Assembly: GCF_024734075.1 (NCBI RefSeq)
Contig: NZ_CP102850.1
Coordinates: 2,976,001 to 3,040,000, forward strand
From: Gordonia mangrovi
GTDB lineage: Bacteria; Actinomycetota; Actinomycetes; Mycobacteriales; Mycobacteriaceae
DNA length: 64,000 nucleotides
Direction: 5' to 3'
Both the position numbers and the translations under genes were made by a program. The notes beneath the pieces were generated by a model. It was not told the DNA's origin and searched no databases. It saw only the letters and a list, made by a program, of their open reading frames with translations. Of this stretch, positions 1,294-26,679 are shown in pieces. How positions within the stretch are numbered: position 1 is the first letter of the stretch; every line of letters starts with the position of its first letter.

Positions 1294-2087
1294 GGCAGTG
1301 ATGCTCCTGCGTGCATAGGGGTGGTGTGGGCCACGAAATCGGTCAGGGCGTGGGTGAGTTCGACGGCTTCCGGATGCCATTGGACTCCGAGGACGTAGCG
1401 GTGGCGTGGCCACTCGACTGCTTCGGGCAGTCGATCGGGGAGGGCGTGCGCGGTGACCACGGCTCCTTCTCCCAACACAGCGACACCCTGGTGGTGGTGA
1501 GAGTTGACCACCTGGATTCCGCTGCCGGACAACGCTGCCGCGTGCGACTCCGGACGAACCGCGACCTGGTGAAAGGTTTCGCCGTCCAGCCGTCCCGGGC
1601 GGGGCCGATGCTCGGCGAACCCTTCGTCGCGCAGATGCTGATGCAGCGTCCCGCCGGTTGCGACATTGAGGATCTGCATGCCGCGGCAGATACCCAGGAT
1701 CGGCATGTCGCGATGCATCGCCGCACGAGTGAGGTTCAGCTCGAACGTGTCGCGGAGCGGCTCGGTGGCCTCGGTCTTGCGCGTCCGCACTGCGCCATAG
1801 GATCCAGGGGTCAGGTCGAGACCCCCGATCAGCATCAGTCCGTCGATTCGGTCGAGGATCAACTCCGGATTGCGGGCGGCTCGCTCATCGGGCGCCAGTC
1901 CGACGGCGATCGCCCCCGCCGCAGCGATCTTGTTGAGATAGGTACTCGGGACGATGGCAGCGTGCTGTTGCCAGAATCCCCAGGTTGCGGTTTCGAAAGC
2001 CGCGCAGACTCCGATGATCGGGGTGTGCGCTGTGACCTCTGACGTGTTTGACTCGTGGGTGGCGGTTGGATCGGGTGCGGTGGTCAC
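1290..2087 (-). CDS. Class I glutamine-amidotransferase-like hydrolase, PuuD type (peptidase C26)
   Basis: 265 residues. The catalytic triad of the C26 family is visible: the nucleophilic cysteine in GICRGMQ near the middle, and the His-Glu pair in QWHPE near the C-terminus, plus the NSHHHQ segment typical of gamma-glutamyl-GABA hydrolases. In the Puu pathway this enzyme removes the gamma-glutamyl group that a glutamine-synthetase-like ligase added to an amine. The start overlaps the aminotransferase stop and its own stop overlaps the dehydrogenase start, each by 4 bases. The PuuD-like role is supported by the ligase gene at 3702; the true acyl group is not known. Confidence 0.88.
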   Translation of the reverse strand: MTTAPDPTATHESNTSEVTAHTPIIGVCAAFETATWGFWQQHAAIVPSTYLNKIAAAGAIAVGLAPDERAARNPELILDRIDGLMLIGGLDLTPGSYGAVRTRKTEATEPLRDTFELNLTRAAMHRDMPILGICRGMQILNVATGGTLHQHLRDEGFAEHRPRPGRLDGETFHQVAVRPESHAAALSGSGIQVVNSHHHQGVAVLGEGAVVTAHALPDRLPEAVEWPRHRYVLGVQWHPEAVELTHALTDFVAHTTPMHAGASLP

Positions 2088-3457
2088 TGGATCTCATCCG
2101 CGAACTTCGCTTCGGCCTCGGTCAGGCAGCGGTCGACGATGTCGATGGCGCGTTCGGCTTCGTCGCGGGTCAGGACGAAGGGCGGTGCCAGGTGCAGGAC
2201 GTCCCAGACTCGGGTGACCAGCCCCTCCTCCTGTGTGCGCAGTGCCAGGAACTTGATGAACGGATGCGACGTGCCCCACGCCTCTCGGGTGTCCTTGTTC
2301 TTGACGAAGTCGATCGCGCAGAGCAGGCCCAGTCCACCGCGAACATCGCCGACTGTCGGATGACTGCGCAGCTTTTGAGCCAGATCGTAGAGGTAGGTGC
2401 CCATCTCGGCCGATCGTTGGACGAGGTTTTCGCGCTCCAGGATCTCGATGTTCTTCAGGGCGGCGGCCGCAGCCACAGCGTGCCCGCCGAACGTGATCAA
2501 GTGGTTGAGAGCTTGCCCGGTCGGGCGGAAGTCATCGAAGATAGACGACCGCACCGCGACGGCGGCAACCGGGGCGTATCCGCTCGACAGTCCCTTCGCC
2601 ATTGTCATGATGTCCGGAACGACGCCGTAATGCTCTGCGGCGAACCATTTCCCGGTGCGTCCCCAGCCGGTGATGACTTCGTCCATGATGAGTAGAACGC
2701 CGTACCGGTCGCAGATGTCACGCAACATCTGCCAGTAGATCGGGCTTGGCAGATGGGTACCGTTGGCCACGGAGATCGGTTCACCGATGACCGCCGCCAC
2801 GTTCTCGGGCCCCTGTGCGAGGATCTCTTGCTCGATGAAGCGAGCGCACATGATGTCTCCCGCCTCTCCGTCGAGTCCGAAGTCATTGCGGTACTGATTC
2901 GGGTTGGGGACCTTGCTGACGCCGGGCATGAAGGGGCCGAAGTACTTCTCACTCGCACTGCCGGTCAGACTTGCTGCCCCGAACGTCGTCCCATGGTAGG
3001 AGCCGCGACGCGCAATGATCTTGTAGCGCTTACCATGTCCGCGCATGACCTGAACTTGTTTGGCAATCTTCATCGCACTCTCGACCGCCTCGGAACCGCC
3101 TGAGCACAGGAACACCCGATTCAGGTCCCCCGGCGTGAGACTGCTGATCTTCTCCGCGAGTGCAATGTTCACCGGATTCGCCGCGTTCGAGGCTGCAGTA
3201 TAGGCAATCTCGCCGGCCTGACGCGCCATCGCCTCGCCTATCTCGGTGCGTCCGTGACCGGCGGCTACCACGAAGAGTCCGGCGAGGCCGTCGATGTATT
3301 CGGCGCCGTGTACATCAATGAGGGTGGAACCATGACCGCGGCTGAACACGCGTAGGCCACCCTCCTGCAGGTCGTCCCACTCCAGGTCGTTGCTGTGCAT
3401 CCACAAGTGATCGAGTGCGCGCGTCTCGAGTGCGTGGCGGGTCTGTACGGAAGTCAT
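2084..3457 (-). CDS. Class III (omega) aminotransferase, PLP-dependent
   Basis: 457 residues from the ATG at 3457, chosen because GAAAGGA lies 9 bases upstream; an in-frame start 10 codons earlier lacks this site. Family features are clear: LCSGGSEAVESAMK (PLP phosphate region), the pyridine-binding aspartate in LLIMDEVITGWGRTG, and the Schiff-base lysine in MTMAKGLSSGYAP. Omega-aminotransferases move a terminal amino group to pyruvate or 2-oxoglutarate, leaving an aldehyde; the coupled dehydrogenase would oxidise that aldehyde. First gene of a minus-strand operon, divergent from the glutamine-synthetase-like gene across a promoter region with two matched inverted repeats. Confidence 0.92.
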   Translation of the reverse strand: MTSVQTRHALETRALDHLWMHSNDLEWDDLQEGGLRVFSRGHGSTLIDVHGAEYIDGLAGLFVVAAGHGRTEIGEAMARQAGEIAYTAASNAANPVNIALAEKISSLTPGDLNRVFLCSGGSEAVESAMKIAKQVQVMRGHGKRYKIIARRGSYHGTTFGAASLTGSASEKYFGPFMPGVSKVPNPNQYRNDFGLDGEAGDIMCARFIEQEILAQGPENVAAVIGEPISVANGTHLPSPIYWQMLRDICDRYGVLLIMDEVITGWGRTGKWFAAEHYGVVPDIMTMAKGLSSGYAPVAAVAVRSSIFDDFRPTGQALNHLITFGGHAVAAAAALKNIEILERENLVQRSAEMGTYLYDLAQKLRSHPTVGDVRGGLGLLCAIDFVKNKDTREAWGTSHPFIKFLALRTQEEGLVTRVWDVLHLAPPFVLTRDEAERAIDIVDRCLTEAEAKFADEIQ

Positions 3458-3520
3458 GGTTCCGGTCCTTTCGGGGTTTGCGGTCAATGCACCGTCGGCT
3501 GCGGCGCAGGAGGAGAGTTA

Positions 3521-3648: not shown

Positions 3649-3701
3649 ACGTGCCCGTGTTGCGGACGCGGCACCCATCGGCTCGTCGCCGGGAGGAACC
3701 A

Positions 3702-5057
3702 TTGCACACACAATCCCTTGATGCTCGTAGCCACGAGTGTGGTGTGACAGACCGGACGGGCGAATCCGCCGATAGCCACGTCTTGCCCGCCGGTGCGGGT
3801 AGTGCTGCCCTGCTCTTTCCCGACATCAATGGAAATCTGCGCGGCAAGCTGGTGGTGCCGTCCGAGCTCGAGTCCGAGAGCGCGCGCACCGTGGGTCTGC
3901 CGACTACCGATCTATTGCTGGCCGTTGACCCGGTTGACGAACCGATCACCACACTCACCGACATCGGCATTACGGCGGGGTCCAAAGACTTGCTGCTGAA
4001 ACCTGATACAGCATCTGTCCGCCGCATGCCGTGGCTGAACGACGATGCCTACCTTGTGCTCGGCGACCTCAACAACACCGACGGTTCGACATGCGAGGTC
4101 AGCCCGCGAGGAGTGCTTCGTCGCGCACTCACGGCGCTGTCGGAATGCGGACTGCAGATCATGGCGGCCTTCGAATTCGAGTTCCGATTGTTCCGCGCCG
4201 ACTCGTGGGAACCGGCGACGTCCGGACTCAGCTACAGCATGGCACCGTTGGCACAGGTCGCTGACTTCGTTGCGACGTTCCGGAGTTACGCGGAGGCCAT
4301 GCGGTTGGGTCTGTCGGTGGTGCACAGCGAGGGGGCGCCGGGACTGATCGAGGTGAATGTCGATCCGGCAGTCGGGCTCGATGCAGCCGACATCGCTGCA
4401 CTCCTGCGTACCGCCGCGACCGAGGCCGCCCGGCGCCACGACCTTCGTGCGTGTTTCATGTCGAAACCGATCGCGCGTGAAGAGGGTTCCAGCGCGCACG
4501 TGCACTTCTCGTTCTGGAATGAGGGGGGCGACAACGCCCTGCGGGGTGCCGTTGACGATGCACACGACGAGTTCTACCGGCGCTGCGCGTCGGGCATTGT
4601 CCAACACCTGCCTGCCATGAGCGTGATCTACAACCCGACGATCAACTCCTTCAAGCGGTTGGTACCCGGCTACTTCGCTCCGGTCACTGCGGGCTGCGGC
4701 CCCGACGACAGGTCGTTTGCACTGCGCGCGCTGCTGCGTGGACCGCGATCGAGTCGGTTCGAGCTGCGACGCCCGGGTGCCGACTGCAACCCCTACCTCA
4801 CGCTCGCGGCGATCGCGGCGTCGGCGTATCTGGGTCTCGTCGACACCGTGGTGCCGGCCCGCGACGAACTCGACCGGCACGACGCCCCGTTGCCGAACAG
4901 TCTGGAGTCCGCGGTCAGCGAATTTCGGCGGCGTGACTCGCGACTTGACGACGTTCTCGGCGCCCGATTCTGCCGCCATTACCTGCACACCCGCGAGTGG
5001 GAGCTGCATGCGTGGCAGGATGCGGTGAGCGAATGGGAGCGTCAGCGGTATGCCTGA
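3702..5057 (+). CDS. Glutamine-synthetase-family ligase (gamma-glutamyl-amine synthetase-like)
   Basis: 451 residues from a TTG at 3702, preceded five bases away by GGGAGG; no better start is visible. The fold of the glutamine synthetase family shows in the N-terminal NGNLRGK segment, the metal-binding ExE in AAFEFEFRLF, SSAHVHFSFW, NSFKRLVPGYFAP and the active-site arginines in RGPRSSRFELRRPG. Neighbours (aminotransferase, PuuD-like hydrolase, aldehyde dehydrogenase, amine permeases) indicate a PuuA-like role: ATP-dependent gamma-glutamylation of an amine rather than ammonia assimilation. Similar genes are known beside piperidine/morpholine P450 and RDX P450 clusters. The amine substrate is not determinable here. 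Confidence 0.9.
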   Translation: MHTQSLDARSHECGVTDRTGESADSHVLPAGAGSAALLFPDINGNLRGKLVVPSELESESARTVGLPTTDLLLAVDPVDEPITTLTDIGITAGSKDLLLKPDTASVRRMPWLNDDAYLVLGDLNNTDGSTCEVSPRGVLRRALTALSECGLQIMAAFEFEFRLFRADSWEPATSGLSYSMAPLAQVADFVATFRSYAEAMRLGLSVVHSEGAPGLIEVNVDPAVGLDAADIAALLRTAATEAARRHDLRACFMSKPIAREEGSSAHVHFSFWNEGGDNALRGAVDDAHDEFYRRCASGIVQHLPAMSVIYNPTINSFKRLVPGYFAPVTAGCGPDDRSFALRALLRGPRSSRFELRRPGADCNPYLTLAAIAASAYLGLVDTVVPARDELDRHDAPLPNSLESAVSEFRRRDSRLDDVLGARFCRHYLHTREWELHAWQDAVSEWERQRYA

Positions 5058-5178
5058 CAGCATCTCAGCGGTGGGGAACACCGAGGTCGGATTGTTAGAG
5101 TTTGCTGGTGCGTCAGCGAACACCGACACGCCGTGTCGCAGGCCCCACGTTGTTGATGCTGCTCGTGAAGGGAGGGTG

Positions 5179-5952
5179 GTGAACAGCCCCGATCCTCGTG
5201 ATTCGCGCGCCATGAACATGCCGCCCGTCCGCTCTGGCAATCGAGTCGACATCAACCGGTACGTGGCGGACCTGGTGCGTCGGGAGATACGACTCGGCCT
5301 GCTTCCGCCTGGCTCGGCGCTTCCATCCGAACGGGACTTCGCCGACAAGCTGGGTATCGGTCGGACCCCGGTGCAGATTGCGTTTAGGCAACTGCAATCC
5401 GAAGGGCTGATCGTGCAGCGTCGGGGCCGCAACGGCGGAGCATTCGTCCGGCTGACCGGACAGGACGAAGACGAGGAGCGATTCCGCGACGTGATCCGGG
5501 AGGCCCTGGCCACGCGGGACGAGATCCGGATGGCGATGGAGTATCGGTGCATCGTCGAACCGTCCGCGTCCCGACTCGCCAGCGAGCGGCGAACTGCCGC
5601 CGAACTGCGTGAACTCGAGTCGGCGCACGCACTACTCATGGAAGCGGCCGACGATGCGTCCTTCATGCGTAGTGATGCTGTCTTTCATCTCACCTTGGCC
5701 AATGTCACTGCGAACCCGTTCCTCGTTCGAGGTATCGAGGAATCACGGCAGTGCTGTCACCCGGCGTTGGTCCTCCTACCCGAAGGGGGAGCGTTTCACG
5801 AGGTGACCATCGCGGAGCACAGCGAGATCCTGGACGCAGTGCGAGCCGGCGAGGCGGAACTCGCCGAACAAACGATGAGTGAACACGTGCGGCGCAGTAT
5901 GTGGAGTGTCGAGAAGCTGTTGTCGTCGTTGCGCGAGTCGCAACGCGAGTAG
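5179..5952 (+). CDS. GntR-family regulator, FCD (FadR-like) type
   Basis: About 257 residues from the GTG at 5179, preceded by AAGGGAGG; an ATG at 5050 that overlaps the upstream stop and an ATG at 5212 are alternatives. The N-terminal winged helix is typical: LRRE-type first helix, LPPGSALPSERDFADKLGIG, then RTPVQIAFRQLQSEGL. The C-terminal half is the all-helical FCD effector domain, with the metal-site histidines suggested by AVFHLTLA and EHSEILDAV. It lies downstream of the ligase gene and probably controls the amine module, perhaps through the paired repeats at 3521-3648. Confidence 0.88.
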   Translation: MNSPDPRDSRAMNMPPVRSGNRVDINRYVADLVRREIRLGLLPPGSALPSERDFADKLGIGRTPVQIAFRQLQSEGLIVQRRGRNGGAFVRLTGQDEDEERFRDVIREALATRDEIRMAMEYRCIVEPSASRLASERRTAAELRELESAHALLMEAADDASFMRSDAVFHLTLANVTANPFLVRGIEESRQCCHPALVLLPEGGAFHEVTIAEHSEILDAVRAGEAELAEQTMSEHVRRSMWSVEKLLSSLRESQRE

Positions 5953-5964
5953 AAGTTGATGACG

Positions 5965-6624
5965 CTACGTGTCCGCGAAGTCAGCGAAATAGGTGGTGAG
6001 CATGTGCCGTGCCTCGCCGATGATGGCCGGGTTCCCGGTCGGGGCCTCGCCGAATGCGAACTGGCAGAGTCGCTCCAGGCTGTGGATGGCCACTGCGCAG
6101 TTCAGTTCTCGGAGCTTGGCGAACTGTGGCGAATAGAGCCGGAATTCCCGATGCATCAGCGATGCGAGGTCGGTGATGGCGAGCTGGTCGAGCTCTCGGA
6201 CGCGACGAGTGAGGTTCTGCCGCACCCACAGCTCGCGGATGAGCGGAATGCGGTGTTCCTCGACGTAGTAATCGACGAGGACGTCAACGATCTCGGTCCA
6301 CTTACGTCCTGCTCGTTGTCGCATCGCGTTCTCGAGATCGGTGACGGACAGCTTGATCTGCCGAAACGCCAGCTCATCGAGGACTCGCTCGGGTGTCTCG
6401 AAGAATGCATAGAATGACCCGCGGCTCACACCCGTTGCGTCCAGTAGCAGCGTCGGTGACGCCACCACCGCTTCGAACCCGACATCGTGGACGAGTTCGG
6501 CGGCAGTGTCGAGCACATGCTGGACCATGGTCCGGGAACGCTCCTGGAGTGGGATCTTGCGCAACCCGCCGGCCAACGGGTCGTCCCACACCGCGCTGAT
6601 CGTCGGGCTCGCTGCTTTCGTCAA
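5965..6624 (-). CDS. TetR-family transcriptional regulator
   Basis: 219 residues from a TTG at 6624 with GAGGAG 7 bases upstream. The N-terminal helix-turn-helix is visible in ELVHDVGFEAVVASPTLL followed by DATGVSRGSFYAFFET, and the rest is a helical ligand-binding domain of ordinary length. Transcribed toward the GntR gene (12 bases between stops) and divergently from the flavoprotein–P450 genes across a 415-base region rich in palindromes, so control of those genes is the likely role. The ligand is unknown. Confidence 0.87.
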   Translation of the reverse strand: MTKAASPTISAVWDDPLAGGLRKIPLQERSRTMVQHVLDTAAELVHDVGFEAVVASPTLLLDATGVSRGSFYAFFETPERVLDELAFRQIKLSVTDLENAMRQRAGRKWTEIVDVLVDYYVEEHRIPLIRELWVRQNLTRRVRELDQLAITDLASLMHREFRLYSPQFAKLRELNCAVAIHSLERLCQFAFGEAPTGNPAIIGEARHMLTTYFADFADT

Positions 6625-7039: not shown

Positions 7040-8410
7040 ATGCACGAACAGAAACTCTCTTCCCAGGCGCTGCTGCCGAATCCCAATATCGCGGTTGTCG
7101 GCAGTGGACCGTCTGGGTGCTACGTCAGTCAGTTCCTCGCGAAGGCCTTGCCGGGTGCGCGTATTGCAGTTTTCGAGTCACTGCCGGTCCCGTATGGGCT
7201 GGTACGGTACGGAGTCGCGGCCGACCACCAGGGCGCAAAGGCGGTCAGCCGCCAATTCGACCGGTTGTTCACCCGTGGTGGGGTGCGATTCGTCGGCAAC
7301 GTCGCAGTGGGTCGCGACCTCCCTTTCGACGCCGTGGCCGAGGCCTTCGACATAGTTGTTCTCGCCACCGGGTTGCCCGACGATCGGGCGTTGCCGATAC
7401 CGACGCACGCCGGCGCGCGGATCATCGGGGCCGGAGCGCTCTTGCGGACTTTGAACGGTTTCCCCGAATCTCTGCTCCCGGTTGATGGGCAGGGTCGCCA
7501 CATGTCGCTGGGGGATGAAGTCGCCGTAATCGGCTTCGGCAACGTTGCGCTCGATGTCATCAGGCTCCTGTCGAAAAACGATGCTGCACTGCATGGCTCG
7601 GATGTCAGCGACGTGGCACTGAACCAGCTTCGGCCGAAACCTCCGCGGAAGATCCATGTCTTCAGTCGATCGGCACCGGACGGTGTGAAGTGTGAGTTGG
7701 CGATGCTGCGAGAACTATTGAGCCTCAGAACGATTCGCGTCAGTGCCGAGGGGATTGATCTATCAGATGCAACGCCGGTGACAAATCTTCTACGTCAGCA
7801 CATCGGTGTTGCTGACTCTGGGATGGAGTCGGCCGACGCGCGCACACACGTGCGCCTGCATTTCGGCCGAACCCCGGAGTCGGTCGAGAGTCGGGGTCCG
7901 ACGACGACCGTCACGGTATCCACCGTGAACGGCGGTCGTCACTCGTACATGGTGGATTGCGTGATCACCGCCATCGGGTTCGACAAGGCTGCAGAACACA
8001 TCCCGGGCAACCCGACAAGCGAATGGGCGGGACCACATGTCTACCGCGTCGGTTGGCTTCGACGGGGGCCAGTGGGGTCCATCCCCGAGAACCGCAAGGA
8101 TGCCAGAGACGTCGCAGGCGCCATCACACGGGATGTGGCGAGCGGTGCGGTGCCGGTGGGATCTCCTGGCTTTGCGGTCGTCGAGCCGCTGATTCGGAAC
8201 CGGATGGTCAGCTTCGCCGACTGGCAACGCATCGAGAAGACGGAGAACCAATCCGCCGAGCCGGGTCGCTGCCGTCGCAAACTGATCGACCTCGAACAGA
8301 TGCTGGAAATCGCAGCGTCGCGTGACGCCACCATGCTCGATCAATCTGCGGCGGATGACATCTACACCACAGACACAGTCGGAGAATCCGGCAGAAGGGT
8401 AAGCGTGTGA
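7040..8410 (+). CDS. FprA/adrenodoxin-reductase-like NAD(P)H:flavodoxin reductase
   Basis: 456 residues from the ATG at 7040, preceded by GAAGGTG; a GTG at 7004 is less likely. FAD-binding GSGPSG at residues 21-26, the PVPYGLVRYGVAADH segment diagnostic of the adrenodoxin-reductase/FprA family, and the second Rossmann motif GFGNVALD at 165-172. It would pass electrons from NAD(P)H to the flavodoxin, whose GTG start overlaps this gene's TGA. Where FprA enzymes usually carry an RR pair for the NADPH 2'-phosphate, this protein reads VFSRSAPDG, so cofactor preference may differ. Similar reductases are XplB and cindoxin reductase. Confidence 0.9.
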   Translation: MHEQKLSSQALLPNPNIAVVGSGPSGCYVSQFLAKALPGARIAVFESLPVPYGLVRYGVAADHQGAKAVSRQFDRLFTRGGVRFVGNVAVGRDLPFDAVAEAFDIVVLATGLPDDRALPIPTHAGARIIGAGALLRTLNGFPESLLPVDGQGRHMSLGDEVAVIGFGNVALDVIRLLSKNDAALHGSDVSDVALNQLRPKPPRKIHVFSRSAPDGVKCELAMLRELLSLRTIRVSAEGIDLSDATPVTNLLRQHIGVADSGMESADARTHVRLHFGRTPESVESRGPTTTVTVSTVNGGRHSYMVDCVITAIGFDKAAEHIPGNPTSEWAGPHVYRVGWLRRGPVGSIPENRKDARDVAGAITRDVASGAVPVGSPGFAVVEPLIRNRMVSFADWQRIEKTENQSAEPGRCRRKLIDLEQMLEIAASRDATMLDQSAADDIYTTDTVGESGRRVSV

Positions 8411-8859
8411 GTACAGCAGCAGTTCTGTTCGGAACCGAGTCCGGAAATTGCGAGATGGTCGCAGAAGACTTGGTCGAAGTGCTGGCAGAAATGGGCATCG
8501 CCGGCGAGGTCGTTGCGATGGACGAAGTCGACGTCGAGAACCTCAGCGACAACGCTCTGATCATCTTGGTCTCTTCGACGTACGGGGAGGGTGACCTGCC
8601 GAACACTGCGGTTCCCTTCTTCGAATCGTTGCAGGAGAAGCGCCCGGATCTGTCACACAACCGATTCGCCGCATTCGGTCTCGGCGACAGTACCTACGAC
8701 ACCTATAACCAGGGCATCGACATACTGATCAAGATGATCGTCGATCTGGGAGCCCGGCAAGTCGGACTGACCGGCCGACACGACGCGGACAGCGGCTTAG
8801 ACGCCCCGACAGTCGCAATCGAGTGGGCGCGGGAGAACCTCGCGGGTCTCACTTTCTGA
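8407..8859 (+). CDS. Flavodoxin (FMN electron carrier for the P450)
   Basis: 150 residues, the normal size of a short-chain flavodoxin. The FMN phosphate loop is GTESGN at residues 9-14; the two flavin-flanking loops appear as SSTYGEGDLPNTA and FGLGDSTYDTYNQG. It starts at a GTG that overlaps the reductase stop, so reductase and flavodoxin are probably made in equal amounts. With the P450 gene 3 kb downstream in the same direction it forms a flavoprotein–flavodoxin–P450 chain, an arrangement known for P450cin and, as a fused protein, XplA. No ferredoxin gene is visible in the module. Confidence 0.93.
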   Translation: MSTAAVLFGTESGNCEMVAEDLVEVLAEMGIAGEVVAMDEVDVENLSDNALIILVSSTYGEGDLPNTAVPFFESLQEKRPDLSHNRFAAFGLGDSTYDTYNQGIDILIKMIVDLGARQVGLTGRHDADSGLDAPTVAIEWARENLAGLTF

Positions 8860-8945
8860 AACCACCGATATTCACCTGATCGTATGTCAGTGCCGACAGG
8901 CGGTCTCACATCTACTCGCTCTGTGCGTACCCAAGGAGTACCAAC

Positions 8946-10421
8946 ATGACCGAGAATACCCTCGCACCTTCGTCTTCACCGCAATCGAATGCTGACGCTG
9001 CTACTACACCTGCGTTGACCGGCCGGATGAGCATGGGCGCGTTGCTGCTCACCGTCCTGGCATTCTCTGCGCCCATCGCTGTTGTTGCGGGATACATACC
9101 GTTCACCATCAGTTTCGGTGGCCCCGCGGCAACGCTGATCTTCATCATGGCCACCGTATTCCTGCTGCTGTTCGCGGTCGGCTACGTAACCATGGCCAAG
9201 AGTCTTCCCAAACCCGGCTCATTCTATGCGTTCATCAGTGCCGGACTCGGCAAGATCCCCGGCCTGGGAGGGGCCTTTCTGGCAGTGGTCTCCTACTTGC
9301 TCATGCTCGGCGGCTGCTATGTTTTCATCGGACTGACCGCCAACGAGTTCATCGCGAGTCTCGACGGTCCGGAGATTCCATGGTGGGTGTGGACCATCGC
9401 GTCCTGGCTCATCGTCAGCGTCATGTGCTACTTCCACATCGAGGTGTCCGCCAAAGTTCTCAGTGTGGCAATGCTTCTCGAGATCGCCATCGTCCTGGTT
9501 TTCAATGTAGCTGTACTTGTCCACGGCGGTGGTCCCGAAGGATTCTCCGCCACCCCGCTCAATCCCGCCGAACTTTCCAACGGCGACATCGGGGTCGCGA
9601 TGCTCTTCGCCATCATGGTCTTCCTTGGATTCGAGGCGACGGCCCTGTTTCGTGACGAGGTCCGCGACCCGGACAAGACCATTCCCCGTGCCACCTACGG
9701 TGCCGTACTGTTCGTCGGGACGCTCTACATCGTGTCGTGCTACCTCTTGACGACGGCCTACGGATCGAATGCAGTGGAAACCGCGACAAACGACCCGAAG
9801 TCCATGTTCCCAGATGCAATCGGGAATCTCGCAGCGCCGGTCTTTACACAGCTCACTTTCCTGTTCATCATCACATCTGAACTGGCGGCTGCCATCTCCG
9901 TGCACAACGTCACCGCACGTTATGCCTATAACCTCGGAGTCGACAATGCTCTGCCGGCGTGGCTCGCCCGGGTTCACCCTCGCCACCATTCGCCCTACCG
10001 TGCATCAGTAACGGTTGCCGCAGTGGTTGCCGTGATCCTGGTGATTCTAAGCTTGGCGAACACTGCGGGAGAAGGACTGGACGCACAGCTATTCGGTCTC
10101 GGCACCGTCGGCGTCCTGGTGTTGATGTGTTTGGTCAGTCTGTCGGTCATCGGTTGGTTCGCGCGTCGCGGGATTTCGAACGGCGGCAATGTCTTCAAGT
10201 GCTTCATCGCCCCGGCGCTGGCTGTGATCGCATTGGGGACTACGGTTGTGCTGGCCGTAATGCATCTGGACCTGGTTGTCGGTGGAGCGCCGGGGCAGAA
10301 CACGGGCCTCCTCTTCATTCTGGCTGCATCGCTTCTGTGCGGATCTGTACTGGCCGTTTACTTCCGGGCGCGCAAGCCCGAGGTGTTCAGGAGACTGGGA
10401 CGCGCCGACGTCGCGGGATGA
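8946..10421 (+). CDS. APC-family amino acid/amine permease 1
   Basis: 491 residues with about 12 hydrophobic membrane spans in the inner membrane, ATG at 8946 with AAGGAG 7 bases upstream. Family signs: the first-span region ending in GYIPFTISFGGPAA, AKSLPKPGSFYAFISAGLGK (amino-acid permease signature) and GFEATALFRDEVRDPDKTIPRATY, which is characteristic of the amino-acid/GABA/ethanolamine permease group. Probably imports the amine or amino acid used by the module. A paralogue follows directly, about 200 bases downstream. Confidence 0.88.
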   Translation: MTENTLAPSSSPQSNADAATTPALTGRMSMGALLLTVLAFSAPIAVVAGYIPFTISFGGPAATLIFIMATVFLLLFAVGYVTMAKSLPKPGSFYAFISAGLGKIPGLGGAFLAVVSYLLMLGGCYVFIGLTANEFIASLDGPEIPWWVWTIASWLIVSVMCYFHIEVSAKVLSVAMLLEIAIVLVFNVAVLVHGGGPEGFSATPLNPAELSNGDIGVAMLFAIMVFLGFEATALFRDEVRDPDKTIPRATYGAVLFVGTLYIVSCYLLTTAYGSNAVETATNDPKSMFPDAIGNLAAPVFTQLTFLFIITSELAAAISVHNVTARYAYNLGVDNALPAWLARVHPRHHSPYRASVTVAAVVAVILVILSLANTAGEGLDAQLFGLGTVGVLVLMCLVSLSVIGWFARRGISNGGNVFKCFIAPALAVIALGTTVVLAVMHLDLVVGGAPGQNTGLLFILAASLLCGSVLAVYFRARKPEVFRRLGRADVAG

Positions 10422-10625
10422 CACGCCTGCGCGTGTTGTCAACTTCTCGCCGACGACATTCTCGATCGAATAGGAAGCCGGACTTCATCTCGCTCACTGA
10501 GGCCTCGTAGAGGTTTGCCCTGCAACCGAGGTGCGCAACACCCCAAGGATCGTGACAGGTGGCTCATTCGGAGCGCGTCGCGATGTCACCGTCCTTCAGC
10601 CCAGCTCACTCAGAGAAAGCCAGCC

Positions 10626-12086
10626 ATGACCCAGGACGCTAGTGCCACAGCGGAAACCGACTCGACCGCGACCACATCTCCCGCCGGCTTAACCGGGAAT
10701 CTCGGAGTACCTCACCTCGTATTCACGGTGATGGCCTTTCAAGCGCCGGTCGTGGCGTTCATGGCCTATATCCCGGTGATGATCGCCACCGGCAACGGTG
10801 TCGGGTCACCTGCGGCGATTCTTGTCGCAGGAGTCGTTCTAGCGCTATTCGCGGTGGGACTGATCGCGATGTCGAGAAGCATGTCGAATCCCGGAGGGTT
10901 CTACGCCTACATCACCGCAGGCCTGGGTCGAGAGGCGGGACTCGGCGCGTCGTTCATCGCGCTCATCTGCTACTTCTTCACCCTCGTCGGGATATATGCG
11001 CTGCTGGGCGTTTCCCTGGAGTCGCTGTGCCGCGACCTTTTCCACGGTCCGGACATCACCTGGTGGGTCTGGACGGCGATCGTATTCGTGATCGTCACCG
11101 CACTCGGACATTTCAGGATGGATGTCTCCGCCAAGGTTCTGTCGGTGTTCCTTATCCTCGAGCTTGTCCTGATCAGCGCATATGACATCGCCGTGATCGC
11201 GCGCAATGGCACATCGGCGTTCTCGCTGGACTCTTTCGCGCCGGACAACGTGTTCTCCGGTTCGCTAGGACTCGCGTTGATGATGGGTGTCGGGCTCTTC
11301 GGTGGCTTCGAGGCAACATTGATCTTCCGTGAAGAGGTCAAACGACCAGAGCGCACCATCCCCCGTGCAACGTTTCTCGTCATCGCTATCGTCGCGATCT
11401 TCTTCGCCTTCACAACCATGCTCTTCATCAATGCCGGTGGAGCGGAAGCTGTTCTGGCGTCCGCTGGCGCCACAGATGCATCGATGGCGAGCATCCAGGA
11501 CAACCTCGGCTCGGTGGCGGTGGACATCGCGACAGTACTGCTCGTGACGAGTAGTTTCGCCGTACTGCTCGCCGCACACAACATCACCGCCCGATACCTT
11601 TTCAGCCTCGGCACCGACGCGATCATCCCGCGGACGGCGGGACTTGCTCATCCCAAACACGGTTCGCCACACGTAGCTTCGGCGATCACCAGTGTCGCGG
11701 TGTTGGTGGTCCTGGTGCCCTTCGTCCTCGCCGATGGTGATCCGAACATGTTCTACGCACGATTCGTGGGCGTGTACAGCTACTCCTTACTCGCTTTGCT
11801 CTTCCTGACCAGCCTCGCGGTGCCGGTGTACCTGATCCGGAGGCGCGACCACCCGGGTGTCAACCGTTGGAATTCCATTGTGTGCCCGGTCCTCGCCGTG
11901 ATCCCTCTGGCAATCGTCGTTGTGTTCGCCACCAAGAATTTCAGCTTGCTCGTCGGGGCCTCGGCAGTCATCTCGGACACGATGCTCGCGGCAATCTACC
12001 TGTTGTTCGTGTTCGGAGTGGTGCTGGCGCTCATCTATCGGCGACGCCGACCCGAGGTGTACGCCCAGATCGGGCGCCAGCAGTGA
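10626..12086 (+). CDS. APC-family amino acid/amine permease 2
   Basis: 486 residues from the ATG at 10626 (GAGAAAG upstream); an in-frame ATG 37 codons earlier gives a hydrophilic, non-family extension and is rejected. It is a clear paralogue of the preceding permease: MSRSMSNPGGFYAYITAGLG, GFEATLIFREEVKRPERTIP and the same pattern of about 12 membrane spans. The two may import different substrates or differ in affinity, or one may export a product. The 204-base spacer before it shows no obvious terminator. Confidence 0.88.
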   Translation: MTQDASATAETDSTATTSPAGLTGNLGVPHLVFTVMAFQAPVVAFMAYIPVMIATGNGVGSPAAILVAGVVLALFAVGLIAMSRSMSNPGGFYAYITAGLGREAGLGASFIALICYFFTLVGIYALLGVSLESLCRDLFHGPDITWWVWTAIVFVIVTALGHFRMDVSAKVLSVFLILELVLISAYDIAVIARNGTSAFSLDSFAPDNVFSGSLGLALMMGVGLFGGFEATLIFREEVKRPERTIPRATFLVIAIVAIFFAFTTMLFINAGGAEAVLASAGATDASMASIQDNLGSVAVDIATVLLVTSSFAVLLAAHNITARYLFSLGTDAIIPRTAGLAHPKHGSPHVASAITSVAVLVVLVPFVLADGDPNMFYARFVGVYSYSLLALLFLTSLAVPVYLIRRRDHPGVNRWNSIVCPVLAVIPLAIVVVFATKNFSLLVGASAVISDTMLAAIYLLFVFGVVLALIYRRRRPEVYAQIGRQQ

Positions 12087-12174
12087 CGCTGAGCCTGACG
12101 TTCATGACTCGGCGTGACCGTACTCGCGTGCAGTGCACCGATCATCAACAGACCCGCTACTGAGAGGAGCCGTC

Positions 12175-13413
12175 ATGCCAACAACTCACACAGAAGGTGA
12201 CCGAGCGAAGGCCGCCATCGATATCAGGCCGTTCGGGGAGATGCCGCGCACCAGGGACCATCTTCCGTGGACAGATCCCCAACTGCGCCGCGACCCCTAC
12301 CCGTTCTACGCCCATGCGCAGACACATGCCCCGGTCAGTCGCGACGAGGACGGTACCGTCGTGCTCACCAAGTACGCGGACCTCATGCACTACGGGAGGT
12401 TGCCGTCAGTTCTCATTGCGCCTGAGTGGGACAAGGCCGGTGCGTGGAGCGTCCTGAGCGACATGGCTCTGGGTCACGACGAACCTGACCACACTCGACT
12501 CAAACGACTCACCTCGAACTGGTTCACGCCGAAGCGCGTCCGTCAATGGGTGGCGATCACCGCGTCTGTCACCGACGAAATCCTCGATCGCATCGGCGCC
12601 GACGGCCTGATCGATGGTTCGTCGCTCGCCGTGGAGGCGACACATCGCACCATCTGTCGCGTGCTGCAGGTGACCGAGGACGGGTTCGACGATGTGCGCC
12701 ATTACATGCGGATGGCCATGCCGATCCTCAGTGCGGTGGCGGGGCCCGAAGACTTCGAAGCTTGCGAACAAGCCCACGTCTACCTCCAAGGCCGCGTGCG
12801 CGAACTCCTCGAACATGCACGCGAGAATCCGGGCGACGGACTTATCCACGAACTCGTGGAAACGGAGCAACGAGGTGACATCACAGCCGCTGAAACACTG
12901 GCGACCGCGTTGTTCTTCTACACCGTCGGCCATATGGACGCGAGTTACCTGATCTCGTCCGGACTCCAGCTGTTCGCTGAGCAGCCTGCGGTGTTCGACG
13001 CGTTCAGAACGAATCCGGACGTCCGCCAGAACATCGTCAGCGAGCTCGTGCGTTACGACGCCCCTGAGCCTGTTGTCACCAGAGCGACGAGCGAGGATCT
13101 CGACATCGGTGGCTTCGAGGTCCCCGCCGGAAGCACACTCCGCTTGATGCTCGGCGCCGCCAACCGCGACCCGGACGTGTATGACGATCCACAGAAGTTC
13201 GACTACACACGGCCGCCGGCGCAGTCGCGCAGTCTCACCTTCAGCCTGGGAAGTCACAGCTGTCAGGGGCGATTGCTGGCGGAAGCCGAGATCAAGACCG
13301 TGTGGGAACGAATTGCCCTGCGCTACTCGCAGATCAAGGTGGCAAGCGCGCCCGAGATGATGTTGACCGATGCGTCGCGTCACTTCATCACCCAGCCGTT
13401 GCGGTTCACCTGA
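12175..13413 (+). CDS. Cytochrome P450 lacking the I-helix threonine
   Basis: 412 residues from the ATG at 12175 (GAGAGGAG upstream). Haem ligand Cys363 in FSLGSHSCQG, the ExxR pair E290/R293 in SELVRYDAPE, and the C-helix segment HDEPDHTRLKR. In the I-helix the usual (A/G)G-x-(D/E)-T reads VGHMDAS (251-257): the acid Asp255 is kept but the threonine that stabilises the Fe-peroxo intermediate is Ala256. P450cin and XplA, which also use flavodoxin-type partners, also deviate at this acid–alcohol pair. Likely hydroxylates or dealkylates the substrate that feeds the amine enzymes; substrate unknown. Confidence 0.92.
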   Translation: MPTTHTEGDRAKAAIDIRPFGEMPRTRDHLPWTDPQLRRDPYPFYAHAQTHAPVSRDEDGTVVLTKYADLMHYGRLPSVLIAPEWDKAGAWSVLSDMALGHDEPDHTRLKRLTSNWFTPKRVRQWVAITASVTDEILDRIGADGLIDGSSLAVEATHRTICRVLQVTEDGFDDVRHYMRMAMPILSAVAGPEDFEACEQAHVYLQGRVRELLEHARENPGDGLIHELVETEQRGDITAAETLATALFFYTVGHMDASYLISSGLQLFAEQPAVFDAFRTNPDVRQNIVSELVRYDAPEPVVTRATSEDLDIGGFEVPAGSTLRLMLGAANRDPDVYDDPQKFDYTRPPAQSRSLTFSLGSHSCQGRLLAEAEIKTVWERIALRYSQIKVASAPEMMLTDASRHFITQPLRFT

Positions 13414-13468: not shown

Positions 13469-13822
13469 ATGACATCTGTAACCACGTCGACTGTTCTGAT
13501 CAACGACGCCGAGAAGATCGAGTTGGAGGACTGGGGGCCCCTGCCGGAGGGGACCGGAGAGCCGATGAGCACGGCCGGGAAGGTTCTGTGGAAGGGTGAG
13601 GGCCCGCTCGAAGCCGGCCTCTGGAAATGTGCGCCCGGTCCATCGCGGTGGTTGTTCGAGACCAACGAATCGATCACGGTGCTGACGGGCCGGATGACCG
13701 TCACCGAGGACAGCGGCGGTTCGTACGTCATCGCGGCAGGGGACAGCGCTGTATTTCCCAAAGGCTGGTCGGGAACGTGGGATATCGAGGAAACCATTTT
13801 CAAGGTCTACACCGCGTTCTGA
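13469..13822 (+). CDS. Small cupin-domain protein (DUF861/ureidoglycine-aminohydrolase-like)
   Basis: 117 residues forming one double-stranded beta-barrel: two cupin blocks around TGRMTVTEDSGGSYVIAAGD and AVFPKGWSGTWDIEET. This type of single-domain cupin often sits in amine or ureide catabolic operons; it lacks the full HxHx(3,4)E...H metal set of catalytic dioxygenases, so a binding, isomerase or accessory role is as likely as catalysis. Follows the P450 gene in the same direction with a TGAAAGG site upstream. Confidence 0.78.
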   Translation: MTSVTTSTVLINDAEKIELEDWGPLPEGTGEPMSTAGKVLWKGEGPLEAGLWKCAPGPSRWLFETNESITVLTGRMTVTEDSGGSYVIAAGDSAVFPKGWSGTWDIEETIFKVYTAF

Positions 13823-14011: not shown

Positions 14012-15073
14012 ATGATGACACACAAACTGCGCACCGTTCTCGGTGACATCGACCCTAGCGAGATGGGTCAAACACTGCCTCACGAGCACATTCAGGGCGT
14101 CTGCGATGTGTACTGGTACCCGGGTGATGACCCGCTGGCTGACCCGGACCCAGCCGCCGCCCCGCGCGTCGACAATCTGTGGCACTGGAAGGAGAACCCG
14201 GTCGCCAACAAGGGCAACATGCACATGACAGACGAACAAGTGTCCATCGACGAGATGCGAATTCTGCCCGACCTCGGCGTGCGAACCGTGGTGAACCTGA
14301 CGCCGATCGGTATGTATCGAAATGCTGAGGGGCTGCGTCGAATCTCGCAGGCGGCCAACGTCAACATTGTTGCCGGCTCCACCTACTACACTGCCGAGTC
14401 ACACCCTTCAGAGCTCAAGGACATGTCCGAGGAGCAGATCTCGCAACGGATCGTCGATGACATCACGACCGGAATGGACGGCACCGACATACGAGCAGGA
14501 ATCGTCGGTGAGGTGGGACTGTCGTGGCCCCTCGACCCTGTCGAGGAGAAGGTTCTTGCCGCCAGCGTGGACGCCCACCGCAAAACGGGAGCGGGGCTGG
14601 CGATCCACAACCCGTACTACGCGCACGGGATCGGCGGGCTCGAACCTCTTCGGGTGATCGCTGAGCGAATCTCGGAGCTCGGGGCCGATATGAGCCGGGT
14701 GATCATGGGCCATACCGACGGTTTCGCACGTGACCCCGGATTCATCGAACTCGTTCGCGACCACGGCTTCGTCGCGGAACTGGATATGTTTGGGTACCAA
14801 TCGGGATACGAACCCGAAGCAGATTTCATGTACCCCGCAGACGGTGACCGGGTCGAGGTCATCTTGGCGATGGCGCAGGCAGGTCTGGCCGATCGTCTCG
14901 TGTTGTCCCATGACGTCATCTTCAAGACCACCTTGATGCGCTGGGGAGGTCACGGCTTCGGCTACATTCACCGCGTGATCGTTCCGTGGCTGAAGCGAAA
15001 AGGATTGGACGACAAAGTACTCGAGCAGATTCTCGAGACGAACTGTCAGAACATCCTGCCGATGGCGGTGTGA
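14012..15073 (+). CDS. Phosphotriesterase-family metal hydrolase (amidohydrolase superfamily)
   Basis: 353 residues. The binuclear metal site of the family is complete: H24 and H26 in LPHEHI, Glu167 in GEVGLSW as the bridging residue, H199 in LAIHNPYY, H234 in MGHTDGF and D301 in LSHDVIFK. Bacterial phosphotriesterase carries a carbamylated lysine at the bridge; the glutamate seen here marks the PHP/lactonase-like subgroup, so lactone, ester or amide hydrolysis is more likely than organophosphate cleavage. Two ATG codons in tandem begin the frame. Probably a late step of the P450/amine module. Confidence 0.85.
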   Translation: MMTHKLRTVLGDIDPSEMGQTLPHEHIQGVCDVYWYPGDDPLADPDPAAAPRVDNLWHWKENPVANKGNMHMTDEQVSIDEMRILPDLGVRTVVNLTPIGMYRNAEGLRRISQAANVNIVAGSTYYTAESHPSELKDMSEEQISQRIVDDITTGMDGTDIRAGIVGEVGLSWPLDPVEEKVLAASVDAHRKTGAGLAIHNPYYAHGIGGLEPLRVIAERISELGADMSRVIMGHTDGFARDPGFIELVRDHGFVAELDMFGYQSGYEPEADFMYPADGDRVEVILAMAQAGLADRLVLSHDVIFKTTLMRWGGHGFGYIHRVIVPWLKRKGLDDKVLEQILETNCQNILPMAV

Positions 15074-15252: not shown

Positions 15253-16788
15253 TCACAACTCTCGCTTGAGGATCTTGCCCGTGCTGGTCATGGGAAGGCT
15301 GTCGACGAACCTGATGACACGGGGGTACTTGTAGGCGGCGAGTCGCTGTTTTGCCCAGTCGACGAGTTCGGCCTCGGTGAGCTCACCGTGCTGGAGGTCT
15401 CGAACGACGACCGCGTGAATCTCCTCGCCGTGCGAATCGTGTGGCACTCCGACGACCGCAACGAGTGACACAGCTGGGTGGGTCATCAGCAGTTCTTCGA
15501 TCTCGCGCGGGTACACGTTGTATCCGCCGCGGATGATCATGTCCTTGCTCCGGTCGACGATGTAATACCACCCGTCGTCATCGCGACGCGCTAGGTCCCC
15601 TGTTCGAAACCAGTTGTCGTGTATCGCTTCACGCGTGGCATCCGGCCGCTGGTAGTAGCCCTTCATGACATTCGGACCGCGGACGGCGATCTCGCCGATG
15701 GCGGTGTAGCCATCGTCGTTGATGGCGTCGGCAACCTCAGACCAATCATCGTTGATGAGCTTCATTTCCACGCCGGGGATCGGAACGCCGATCGATCCGA
15801 TGCGCGGTGGCTCGCCGAGCACGGAGAATGATGTGACCGGTGATGTCTCCGATAGCCCGTAACCCTCGAGAATGGTGACGCCGAACTGGTCGAAAAAGTC
15901 TTTGTGGACTTCGCCGGGCAATGCTGAGCCGCCGGCCACCGCGATCCGGAGGTTGTCGGCGACCCCAGACACATCGATGCCATCGTCAGCCGCGCGCAAG
16001 AGTGCCCAGTACATTGTCGGCACTCCCGCGAAGAACGTGATGCGATGTGTCCGCATCAACTGCAGTGCGGTCGAGGCATCGAAGCGGGGCAGCATGACAA
16101 TCTTGCTGCCGAGAGCGATTGCGCTGTTCTGGATGACCGTCTGGCCGAAGGAGTGGAACAACGGCAGCACGCACAGGTAGGTGTCGGGCGTTGCCTCGTC
16201 GCATCCGAACAGCTCAGCGCTGACGATTGCGTTGCTGCGCATGTTGCTGTGCCGCAACTGAGCGCCCTTCGGCCGACCGGTGGTCCCTGACGTATAGAGC
16301 AGGACTGCGGTTGCGTCGTCTTCGACCGCGACTGTGTCGAAACCCGTTGGTTCAGACGCCCACGGCGCATGGCTGAGGTCCGCGGGTACGACGATCAGTG
16401 ACCGGCAGGATTCGGATTCTTCCGATGCGCTCGCTGCGGCCTGCCCGATGGAGAGCTCCGGAGAGCCTTCGAAGGCCACATAGGCGATTGAGTCCGAGTC
16501 ATCGAGGTGGTAGGCGATCTCGCGACTCTTGAGTAGCACGTTCAACGGGACGACCGTAGCTCCGGTCTTGAGAATCCCGAAATAGACGATCGTGAACTGC
16601 GGAAGGTTCGGAAACGACATCGCGACCTTGTCGCCGGGTTCGACGTCGTGCGCCACCAACAGGTTCGCAACCTGGTTCGCCGCCCGGTCGAGCTGCTCGT
16701 AGGTCAATCGTGTGTCTCCACACGCCACGGCCACACGGTCGCCGTGGCGGGCGGCCGTACCAGTCAACAGATCCGCGAGATTGGTCAT
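15253..16788 (-). CDS. AMP-forming acyl-CoA synthetase/ligase
   Basis: 511 residues from the ATG at 16788. Adenylation motifs are intact: YTSGTTGRPKG at about 165-174, GYGLSETSP, DGWYYIVDRSKDMI and the C-terminal TGKILKREL with the catalytic lysine at 505. Activates a carboxylic acid with ATP and CoA. It is the last gene of the IclR-led operon (17 bases after the MmgE/PrpD stop), so it may activate an acid released by the lyase, such as propionate, or the imported substrate itself. An open frame extends further upstream but over the neighbouring gene. It converges on the phosphotriesterase-like gene. Confidence 0.9.
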   Translation of the reverse strand: MTNLADLLTGTAARHGDRVAVACGDTRLTYEQLDRAANQVANLLVAHDVEPGDKVAMSFPNLPQFTIVYFGILKTGATVVPLNVLLKSREIAYHLDDSDSIAYVAFEGSPELSIGQAAASASEESESCRSLIVVPADLSHAPWASEPTGFDTVAVEDDATAVLLYTSGTTGRPKGAQLRHSNMRSNAIVSAELFGCDEATPDTYLCVLPLFHSFGQTVIQNSAIALGSKIVMLPRFDASTALQLMRTHRITFFAGVPTMYWALLRAADDGIDVSGVADNLRIAVAGGSALPGEVHKDFFDQFGVTILEGYGLSETSPVTSFSVLGEPPRIGSIGVPIPGVEMKLINDDWSEVADAINDDGYTAIGEIAVRGPNVMKGYYQRPDATREAIHDNWFRTGDLARRDDDGWYYIVDRSKDMIIRGGYNVYPREIEELLMTHPAVSLVAVVGVPHDSHGEEIHAVVVRDLQHGELTEAELVDWAKQRLAAYKYPRVIRFVDSLPMTSTGKILKREL

Positions 16789-16805
16789 CGATGAGATCTT
16801 TCTGA

Positions 16806-18260
16806 TCAGAGGGATACAGGCAACGCAGCAACGTCGGCTGCGACGAGTCTGACGATCTCGGATGCGTCGGTCACCGATTCGAGATCGAGTACACGGCTCT
16901 CGATCTCGTGCCAACGTGCGGTGATCCCGATGGAATCGGCGAGTCGTCGGGCCTTGGTCACAATGTCGGAATTCGAGAGGGGTCGCGTCGCGCCACCGAG
17001 CGGTCCGTCGACCTCGAAGGTGACTGGCGCAGCACCGCGGAGTTGGAGGCGCATACGAGCGCGGAATCGGCTCTGCGGACCATCGAAGTCCGCACGGTGA
17101 TGTACACGTATGCGGTTCAGCAGTCGCCAGACGTCGTCGGAGTCGATACGCGCGCTGGTGAACTGTTCGGCCAAGACCTGCTCGTCGAGGAGGGCAACCG
17201 CGACGGTGTAGCCGATGTTCATCTGGGCGCCGATGGTCTCGAGTGGTCTGGTGGGCTCCCACCACCCGTGATGATAAGCGGCATGAGAAACTTCGATGTC
17301 CACGGACTCGATGTCGTCAACTGCGATTCCTCGAGAGCGCGCTTCGAGCGCACAGTCGATCGGGGCGTGCGTTGCCGCCATGGACGCGTAGGCCTTGACA
17401 GCAGTATCCATCAGTGTCCACTCACGACCGAGATCGGAAGCGATGAGATCGGCGTCTGGATTGTGTCCCTCGCCGAATGTGGCGAGGAATCCGCCGTAGG
17501 GCCGCTCATAGACACGTTTGATTCCGGTGTATCCCGCCTGCGCGAGTCCGGCCGCGTACCAACCGTTGCGGGACGCGAAGCCGTGGTGCATCCGCTTGGA
17601 CATCGCCTCATACTGAGCTGCCATGAGGCCCGCCGACTGGGTGGCAGCAAGCCCAAGGGCGTCTTCGACTTGTGCTGCGTCAAGCCCGCGGAGCCAGGCA
17701 GAGGTAGCAGCACTCGCATGTGTTCCGAACACTGCTCCGGAATGCCATCCACGAGAGAGCATTTCAGCTCCATGTAATGCGAGTCCGACGCGTGGCCCGA
17801 CCTCATAACCGGCAACCAGCGCAGTAAGCAACTCGTCACCGGAGACAGCGCGGTCGAGCATGGTGATCGTGCTGATGGCACTGGGGAGTACCAGTGAGTT
17901 GCTGTGCAGCGGGGCATGCACATGATAGTCGTCGAGCTCGAAACCCTGGATGAAGGTGCCGTTCAGCAGACAGGCGGCGGGCGCTGAGGTGGTGCGCGCC
18001 CAACCCAGGATGGGGACGTCTCCCTGTCCCTCCATGGCGAGGACAGCCTCGGCAGCGCGCACCGACCAGGGCAGGCGTGCGCCGACCAAAGCACATGCCA
18101 GCCCATCCAGCATCACATGAGCGGCTCGTAGACGGACCTCGGCCGGGATGTCGTCGTAGCTCAGTGATGCGACCCAGGTTGCGAGGCGTCCGGTGACGCC
18201 GTCGGGTTCTGTCGGCAACGCGGCGGGGTCGGCGATGCCGGTGGTCGGAGTCGTTGTCAT
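16806..18260 (-). CDS. MmgE/PrpD-family protein (2-methylcitrate-dehydratase-like) 1
   Basis: 484 residues from the ATG at 18260, which overlaps the permease stop by 4 bases. Family features: an N-terminal all-helical domain (LATWVASLSYDDIPAEV, HVMLDGLACALVG), GFELDDYHVHAPLHSN with the conserved acid/histidine cluster, and the LGLAATQSAGLMAAQYEAM helix. Members dehydrate 2-methylcitrate or isomerise citrate-like acids such as aconitate; many have no known reaction. A second family member is encoded at 26889 in the same apparent regulon, so two different hydro-lyase or isomerase steps are probable. Confidence 0.88.
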   Translation of the reverse strand: MTTTPTTGIADPAALPTEPDGVTGRLATWVASLSYDDIPAEVRLRAAHVMLDGLACALVGARLPWSVRAAEAVLAMEGQGDVPILGWARTTSAPAACLLNGTFIQGFELDDYHVHAPLHSNSLVLPSAISTITMLDRAVSGDELLTALVAGYEVGPRVGLALHGAEMLSRGWHSGAVFGTHASAATSAWLRGLDAAQVEDALGLAATQSAGLMAAQYEAMSKRMHHGFASRNGWYAAGLAQAGYTGIKRVYERPYGGFLATFGEGHNPDADLIASDLGREWTLMDTAVKAYASMAATHAPIDCALEARSRGIAVDDIESVDIEVSHAAYHHGWWEPTRPLETIGAQMNIGYTVAVALLDEQVLAEQFTSARIDSDDVWRLLNRIRVHHRADFDGPQSRFRARMRLQLRGAAPVTFEVDGPLGGATRPLSNSDIVTKARRLADSIGITARWHEIESRVLDLESVTDASEIVRLVAADVAALPVSL

Positions 18261-19054
18261 GGTGCCACCTCGTAACGATTGCGTATCCGAATCTCCAGGT
18301 ACTGGAGCGCGAAGGTCGGTATCAGCGCGAGTAATCCGATCAAGATCACCTGACCGAGGATGTCTTCCACCCGCGCCAGGGACAGATTGCGCAGCAGTTC
18401 GTAGCCGAGCCCAGTGGAGCTGGAGAACATCTCGGCCAAGATGAGTCCGATGAGGGTGAGTCCGAAGCACAAGCGCATGCCCGAGGCGAATGAAGGAAGG
18501 ACGCTCGGTACGACGATGCGCCGCATCAGGGAGATCCGTGACATACCCAGGCTGGCAGCGAGCTTGAGGTGGAGACGACTGACGTTGGACGTTGCCTCGA
18601 CCATGATCAAGAACATCGGCAAGACCCCGGAGACGAATGCAAAGGACCCTCGACTGAAGTCGCCGATACCGAGAAACAGCAGAAATATCGGATACAGAAC
18701 GATCTTCGGAATGCTGTTGAGTGCGTACACAACAGGCAGTGTCGCGGTGGACCAGAAAGCGCTCAATCCGAGGAGCATCCCGGCGATCGATCCGACCGCT
18801 ACGGCGGCCAGGTAGGAGAGGAGTAGAACTCGGGTGGTGTCGACAATGCTGTTCTGCAGACGGCTACTGCCGATGTCTGAGAGCAAACTCTGCAACGCCT
18901 CGATCGGACCGGGGTAGACGGCGCTGTCGGCGAGTGAAGCTGTGACGGCCCAAGCGAGGAGAACCACGCCGGCGAGCAGGATGGGTGGTACCCATGGTGG
19001 CGCTGCACGCAGCGTCCTGGAACGAACGGGTGTCGACTTGACGGTCGAAGTCAT
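18257..19054 (-). CDS. ABC transporter permease (NitT/TauT type) 2
   Basis: 265 residues starting at the ATG at 19054 inside an ATGA overlap with the upstream permease and preceded by GGAGAAGG. About six membrane spans; the BPD-type cytoplasmic coupling loop reads LAASLGMSRISLMRRIVVPSVLPSFASGMR. Pairs with the next permease, making a heterodimeric membrane domain, as both genes are similar in size and topology but clearly different in sequence. Confidence 0.9.
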   Translation of the reverse strand: MTSTVKSTPVRSRTLRAAPPWVPPILLAGVVLLAWAVTASLADSAVYPGPIEALQSLLSDIGSSRLQNSIVDTTRVLLLSYLAAVAVGSIAGMLLGLSAFWSTATLPVVYALNSIPKIVLYPIFLLFLGIGDFSRGSFAFVSGVLPMFLIMVEATSNVSRLHLKLAASLGMSRISLMRRIVVPSVLPSFASGMRLCFGLTLIGLILAEMFSSSTGLGYELLRNLSLARVEDILGQVILIGLLALIPTFALQYLEIRIRNRYEVAP

Positions 19055-20675: not shown

Positions 20676-20682
20676 GGTGTGC

Positions 20683-21678: not shown

Positions 21679-21759
21679 GATTGTGCTCCGATGTCGTGCT
21701 GGTTGTGGGTTTAAAAAGAGACGTTGTCCTCGCATGTGGGAGGTGGGGAAGTGGCGTCT

Positions 21760-25821: not shown

Positions 25822-25840
25822 GGTGTCGGGTTCCTTCGGA

Positions 25841-26671: not shown

Positions 26672-26679
26672 AATGTGGT
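26667..26679. promoter_or_regulatory. IclR operator candidate, copy 1 (overlaps iclR-like start)
   Basis: ACCATAATGTGGT, extended to AACCA-N5-TGGTT at 26666-26680. The exact reverse complement occurs at 26806-26818. Two identical sites flanking a divergent promoter fit an IclR-type regulator that controls itself and the opposite gene. Confidence 0.65.

Follow-up and report, generated by a model that had tools for sequence, protein, structure and literature searches.

The stretch of the Gordonia mangrovi chromosome analyzed here (64,000 nucleotides, referred to as the window) harbors a cytochrome P450 that, judged by its sequence and modeled structure, is an unfused relative of XplA, surrounded by a conserved set of genes for amine catabolism. 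In the reading that we prefer, with a probability of about two in three, the cluster encodes a chromosomal gamma-glutamylation pathway for amines, similar to the Ipu and Puu pathways, where the oxidase would be a flavodoxin-driven P450 of the XplA type, and XplA would be a branch of the same family without the Asp (or Asn) and Glu residues (D/E; Asp255 and Glu298 in the window protein) that characterize the other members.

The first gene, truncated by the left edge of the window, encodes an aldehyde dehydrogenase (ALDH; 1-1293, minus strand), recognized from a 37% tblastn match to an ALDH in frame and with its start located; its position is equivalent to that in the orthologous clusters. On the same strand are found the genes of a PuuD-type gamma-glutamyl amide hydrolase (Peptidase_C26; 1290-2087, minus strand; PF07722, 193 bits; 66-71% identity in nine orthologous clusters) and a class III aminotransferase (2084-3487, minus strand; PF00202, 312 bits; 84-89% identity in orthologous clusters). 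A GS-like gamma-glutamyl amide ligase with a GS catalytic domain is encoded at 3651-5057 (plus strand; PF00120, 251 bits); in NCBIfam it scores 181 of 429 bits as GlnA and 152 of 650 bits as gamma-glutamylputrescine synthetase, and no equivalog cut-off is reached. Next are a GntR/FCD regulator (5050-5952, plus strand; PF00392 and PF07729; 71-76% identity in orthologous clusters) and, divergent from the reductase gene, a regulator (5965-6624, minus strand) that was assigned by eye as TetR-like; almost every orthologous cluster has its homologue (56-63% identity) beside the reductase gene.

The remaining genes are all on the plus strand. An FAD reductase similar to FprA and adrenodoxin reductase (7040-8410) is followed by a free-standing flavodoxin (8407-8859), an APC permease (8946-10421; PF00324/PF13520; 67-74% identity in orthologous clusters) and a second APC permease (10626-12086; PF13520), which is outside the core cluster and is kept in Amycolatopsis orientalis (64%). 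The P450 gene (12175-13413, 412 residues; Pfam p450), for which ATG at 12175 is a preferable start to GTG at 12133, is adjoined in ten of ten clusters by the gene of an EutQ-like cupin (13469-13822; PF05899; 65-79% identity). A phosphotriesterase-family hydrolase (14012-15073; PF02126; 63-66% identity) is found 3' of the cupin here and in three Amycolatopsis genomes; in a fourth, the corresponding gene is part of a separate operon with the homologue of the second permease and an AMP-ligase. None of the PDB matches of the ligase, the aminotransferase or the phosphotriesterase-family protein names a substrate. The flanking region of the window (15253-29643) encodes an AMP-ligase, two MmgE/PrpD proteins, PrpF, a protein of the PEP-mutase/ICL family, a protein with an aconitase C-terminal domain, a MatC carrier and an NMT1-type ABC transporter, and is another catabolic island, perhaps for a branched tricarboxylate.

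The arrangement ALDH-PuuD-aminotransferase / GS-GntR / TetR / reductase-flavodoxin-APC permease-P450-cupin is common to ten genomes from at least four genera, i.e., Gordonia, Amycolatopsis and two more of the window's family, and the GS-like ligase is 65-70% identical across these ten clusters. There are thus good grounds for the link to amine catabolism drawn in the earlier note, as the GS-like ligase, the PuuD-type amidase, the class III aminotransferase and the APC permease are kept around the P450 in all ten genomes. The hallmark of Ipu- and Puu-type pathways, a GS-like ligase together with a PuuD-type amidase in one cluster, is present. No PuuB-type FAD amine oxidase was found among the Pfam-scanned genes of 1.3-15 kb, where the P450 set occupies its position. 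Organic amines are the substrates of a known group of GS-like ligases (PMC11335346). The P450 system of the Ipu pathway hydroxylates gamma-glutamyl-isopropylamide, and an amidotransferase-type enzyme then frees the product (PMC6776027). A GS-like ligase, a P450 system, an amidase and a permease are common to the Ipu pathway and the window cluster; the Ipu electron-transfer chain, in contrast, is of the ferredoxin type (PMC6776027), without a flavodoxin. Because a GS match is absent from 22 of the 33 non-Streptomyces loci of the P450 family, some of these clusters having neither GS nor PuuD, gamma-glutamylation is not universal in the family.

From this gene content we infer a pathway in which an amine would be imported by the APC permease and coupled to glutamate by the GS-like ligase. 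The P450 would hydroxylate the product of this coupling, or else the amine immediately before it is coupled, and ALDH, the PuuD-type amidase and the aminotransferase would complete the breakdown and recycle glutamate. In the strongest alternative, the first step is the action of the P450 on a free amine, either cyclic or N-alkylated, the ammonium group of which is anchored by Glu298, and the GS-like ligase and PuuD then process the released primary amine. An example of a P450 that acts on such compounds is CYP151, which oxidizes piperidine and pyrrolidine and clusters with a GS-like gene. This order of events agrees with the invariance of the second carboxylate across the family and with the presence of APC permeases beside members without GS or PuuD. 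However, GS and PuuD are well kept in the ten clusters, which is expected if gamma-glutamylation protects the intermediate throughout, and the Ipu precedent places the P450 after the ligase (PMC6776027). We therefore consider initial oxidation of the free amine unlikely, but as an order of steps that deserves to be taken seriously.

The gamma-glutamylation pathway would obtain its electrons along a path from NAD(P)H via the FAD of the reductase and the FMN of the flavodoxin to the heme of the P450. The reductase and flavodoxin genes overlap by four bases (GTGA), as had been noticed earlier, and the best relatives of the reductase in the PDB are adrenodoxin reductase and FprA (phmmer matches to 1cjc and 1lqt); it is also related to XplB (39%). 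The flavodoxin (PF00258 Flavodoxin_1, 100 bits), one of three flavodoxin domains above the Pfam cut-off in the genome, is 54% identical to the flavodoxin domain of XplA, and its best PDB match is cindoxin (E 6e-30). Ferredoxin-dependent (class I) bacterial P450s have a ferredoxin gene beside the P450 gene, unlike the window, where none is found near the cluster; the nearest Fer2, Fer4_13 or Fer4_15 matches are about 279 kb or more away. The gene context thus supports the view of the earlier note that a flavodoxin, not a ferredoxin, is the partner. A dedicated ferredoxin encoded elsewhere was rejected as donor, since none is near the cluster; ferredoxins exist genome-wide, and these may still donate electrons promiscuously.

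The same association is found across the family. Of the 33 non-Streptomyces family loci, 27 have a flavodoxin gene beside the P450 gene, compared to 0 of 13 loci of ordinary P450s from the window genome; the corresponding numbers are 26 of 33 and 1 of 13 for an FprA-like reductase and 40 of 51 and 1 of 13 for an APC permease. Distances between the P450s correlate with those between the flavodoxins (rho 0.63) and the reductases (0.48), values that none of 1000 permutations reaches and that partly reflect shared ancestry. On genomic grounds, the reductase-flavodoxin-P450 electron-transfer trio is convincing. Because the Streptomyces branch keeps D and E with adjoining ferredoxin genes instead of a flavodoxin, flavodoxin dependence is not strictly tied to the D/E active site. 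In the reductases of the clade, including XplB, the Arg-Arg of FprA and adrenodoxin reductase in the segment of the NADP 2'-phosphate site is replaced by Arg-Ser or Arg-Gly, which might loosen the preference for NADPH.

The I-helix of the P450 contains the sequence VGHMDAS (encoded at 12925-12945), as reported earlier, where Ala256 was taken to replace the conserved threonine and an alignment with another residue in the threonine role was named as evidence to the contrary. Ungapped alignments with XplA and with ordinary P450s of the same genome, which mostly read G-H/N-E-T, place Met254 in the acid slot and Asp255 in the threonine slot, with Ala256 one residue beyond (G252-H253-M254-D255-A256-S257, 12928-12945); XplA reads G-H-M394-A395. 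The assignment of Ala256 must therefore be corrected, and the claim that the normal acid-alcohol pair is lost holds, through Met254-Asp255. Ser257 was rejected as a substitute for the threonine because some orthologues have Thr or Gly at this position. The Met-Asp pair is kept in ten of ten members of the window clade, which consists of the window protein and its nine orthologues. Outside XplA, each of the 57 family rows has Asp or Asn as its threonine-slot residue and a Glu aligned with Glu298 (codon at 13066-13068). Only XplA is without both, having A395 and Q438 at the positions of D255 and E298 (numbers recomputed from the DN22 protein); together with M394 these are the reported active-site residues of XplA.

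By alignment, Q438 and Glu298 belong to the loop that follows the K helix; in the P450 fold, this loop lines the heme pocket and lies above the heme. The heme ligand is Cys363 (codon at 13261-13263). The AlphaFold2 model (mean pLDDT 86) shows a break of the I-helix at 252-253, as expected for a dioxygen groove. Both D255 and E298 would be positioned in the pocket, where Asp255 (Asn in sister branches) and Glu298 may replace the acid-Thr pair in proton delivery, substrate anchoring or both. Another P450 of the genome (L008 1414-2673) has the I-helix sequence GAMQEP and is encoded just 5' of an 843-residue frame with a Fer2 domain; the two look like a GcoA/GcoB-type pair.

XplA is the closest PDB relative of the window P450 in both sequence (45-46% identity over 383 residues, E 3e-110) and structure, where 385 residues of the model align to XplA 164-552 at 1.4 A (VIA-align Z 53.5). 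SscaCYP (8q5j) is the next structural match, at Z 50.3, ahead of ordinary P450s (Z of at most 43). The identity to XplA exceeds the 40% over the P450 domain that by convention defines a family, here CYP177, although the naming rests with the nomenclature committee; of the features of CYP177, an XplB-like partner of the adrenodoxin-reductase type (39%) is encoded in the cluster, while the fused N-terminal flavodoxin and the Met-Ala pair are absent (Met-Asp here; Ala is confined to XplA).

Family members, collected by scanning genome contigs once and by searching plasmids and whole genomes, form a single clade of 59 rows relative to ordinary P450s (support 100/99) in a tree from which the trait columns were excluded. 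Two of its branches read Met-Asp: one is the window with its nine orthologues, the other a further Gordonia. The remaining branches are XplA (Met-Ala), fused forms from actinobacteria with Pseudomonas and Klebsiella plasmids (Pro-Asn), rhizobia with Sphingobium (His-Asn or Pro-Asn) and Streptomyces (Leu-Asp). A tree with XplA as the primitive sister, outside the rest of the family, was rejected (p-AU 0.0012). As XplA is nested inside the clade, the loss of both residues is most parsimoniously read as derived, and XplA would have descended from an amine oxidase of the present kind by losing both (A395, Q438). At E 1e-60, relatives are found in 4 of 59 genomes of the genus (the window genome included) and in 4 of 399 in a sample of the order. 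A phylum-wide search of 396 genomes at the same threshold gave none besides the window genome, so the family is sparse. Its patchy occurrence resembles that of a mobile catabolic cluster.

Several of these branches show other gene combinations. The flavodoxin-P450 fusions found in Rhodococcus, Arthrobacter and Mycolicibacterium, for instance on pLRE138, belong to the clade and have a flavodoxin, an FprA-like reductase and mostly an APC permease, but differ from the window in the fusion itself, in Pro-Asn instead of Met-Asp and in an identity of 34-37%. SscaCYP from Streptomyces scabiei, on which the literature search found no paper, shares the threonine-slot Asp and the Glu of position 298 with the window protein (35% identity), and GS and PuuD genes are found near its Streptomyces relatives; unlike the window protein, it has Leu in the acid slot, and these relatives have a ferredoxin gene and no flavodoxin. 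In Streptomyces clusters (L014 2604-18499), a Leu-Asp member is combined with GS, PuuD, ferredoxins and a 3,4-dihydroxyphenylacetate-type dioxygenase; these clusters may encode an aromatic amine pathway. The family's reductase, flavodoxin and P450 genes also occur, with an APC permease, on conjugative plasmids of Klebsiella and Enterobacter (L013 10207-16980), which come from panda, human and freshwater samples. One Gordonia genome (L065 8051-19994) has two family members, Met-Asp and His-Asn, within about 8 kb, and a single flavodoxin/reductase pair, which they may share, in the stretch read.

The XplA/XplB system (CYP177A1), which denitrates RDX, resembles the window in its heme domain (45% identity), the Met of the acid slot, the flavodoxin and the reductase, and also in a GS-like domain linked to the reductase. 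It differs in the fused flavodoxin, in Ala395 for Asp and Gln438 for Glu298, and in its location in a plasmid RDX cluster instead of a chromosomal amine cluster. On pGKT2 of Gordonia sp. KTR9, the GS-like domain and XplB form one open frame of 814 residues (L009 11999-14441), and XplA's partner thus bears the mark of a gamma-glutamylation pathway. A GS-XplB fusion has reportedly also been seen in Microbacterium. XplA, the nearest characterized relative, likewise has Met in the acid slot, and the absence of an acid-Thr pair is considered to favor reductive chemistry (PMC8081977), so the window P450 could be a reductive enzyme that denitrates nitramines or similar compounds; this is improbable, because both positions at which XplA deviates are still acidic here (D255, E298) and the amine-catabolic neighbors are kept in ten genomes. 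The earlier note's proposal of an independent third flavodoxin-P450 system, free-standing beside P450cin and XplA and with Ala256 replacing Thr, is right about the flavodoxin partner and the abnormal I-helix, but is hardly tenable given Asp255 in the slot and the homology of P450, flavodoxin and reductase to the XplA system. P450cin (CYP176A1, with cindoxin) also uses a flavodoxin carrier and a non-Thr residue in the slot, but this residue is Asn242, compared to Asp255 beside Met254 in the window, and P450cin keeps Asp241. P450cin is absent from the best 60 PDB sequence matches of the window P450 and from the rows of the structure search; the latter absence by itself carries no weight.

The preferred gamma-glutamylation reading thus retains, in a stronger form, an earlier point, namely the role in amine catabolism of a flavodoxin-driven P450 whose oxygen-activation residues are abnormal, and ties it to the origin of XplA. 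A broader proposal is that the whole clade, as amine oxidases, moved oxygen activation away from the acid-Thr pair of the I-helix to the Asp/Asn of the Thr slot and a Glu near the heme, and that XplA arose by losing exactly these two residues; we regard this as tentative, with the odds slightly against it. RDX is a synthetic explosive, and the cluster points to a source for XplA and to the two active-site residues that it would have lost. With an unfused relative, intact neighbors and two candidate residues, the origin of XplA becomes testable, and the family offers a natural series of P450s without the acid-alcohol pair that is useful for the study of oxygen activation.
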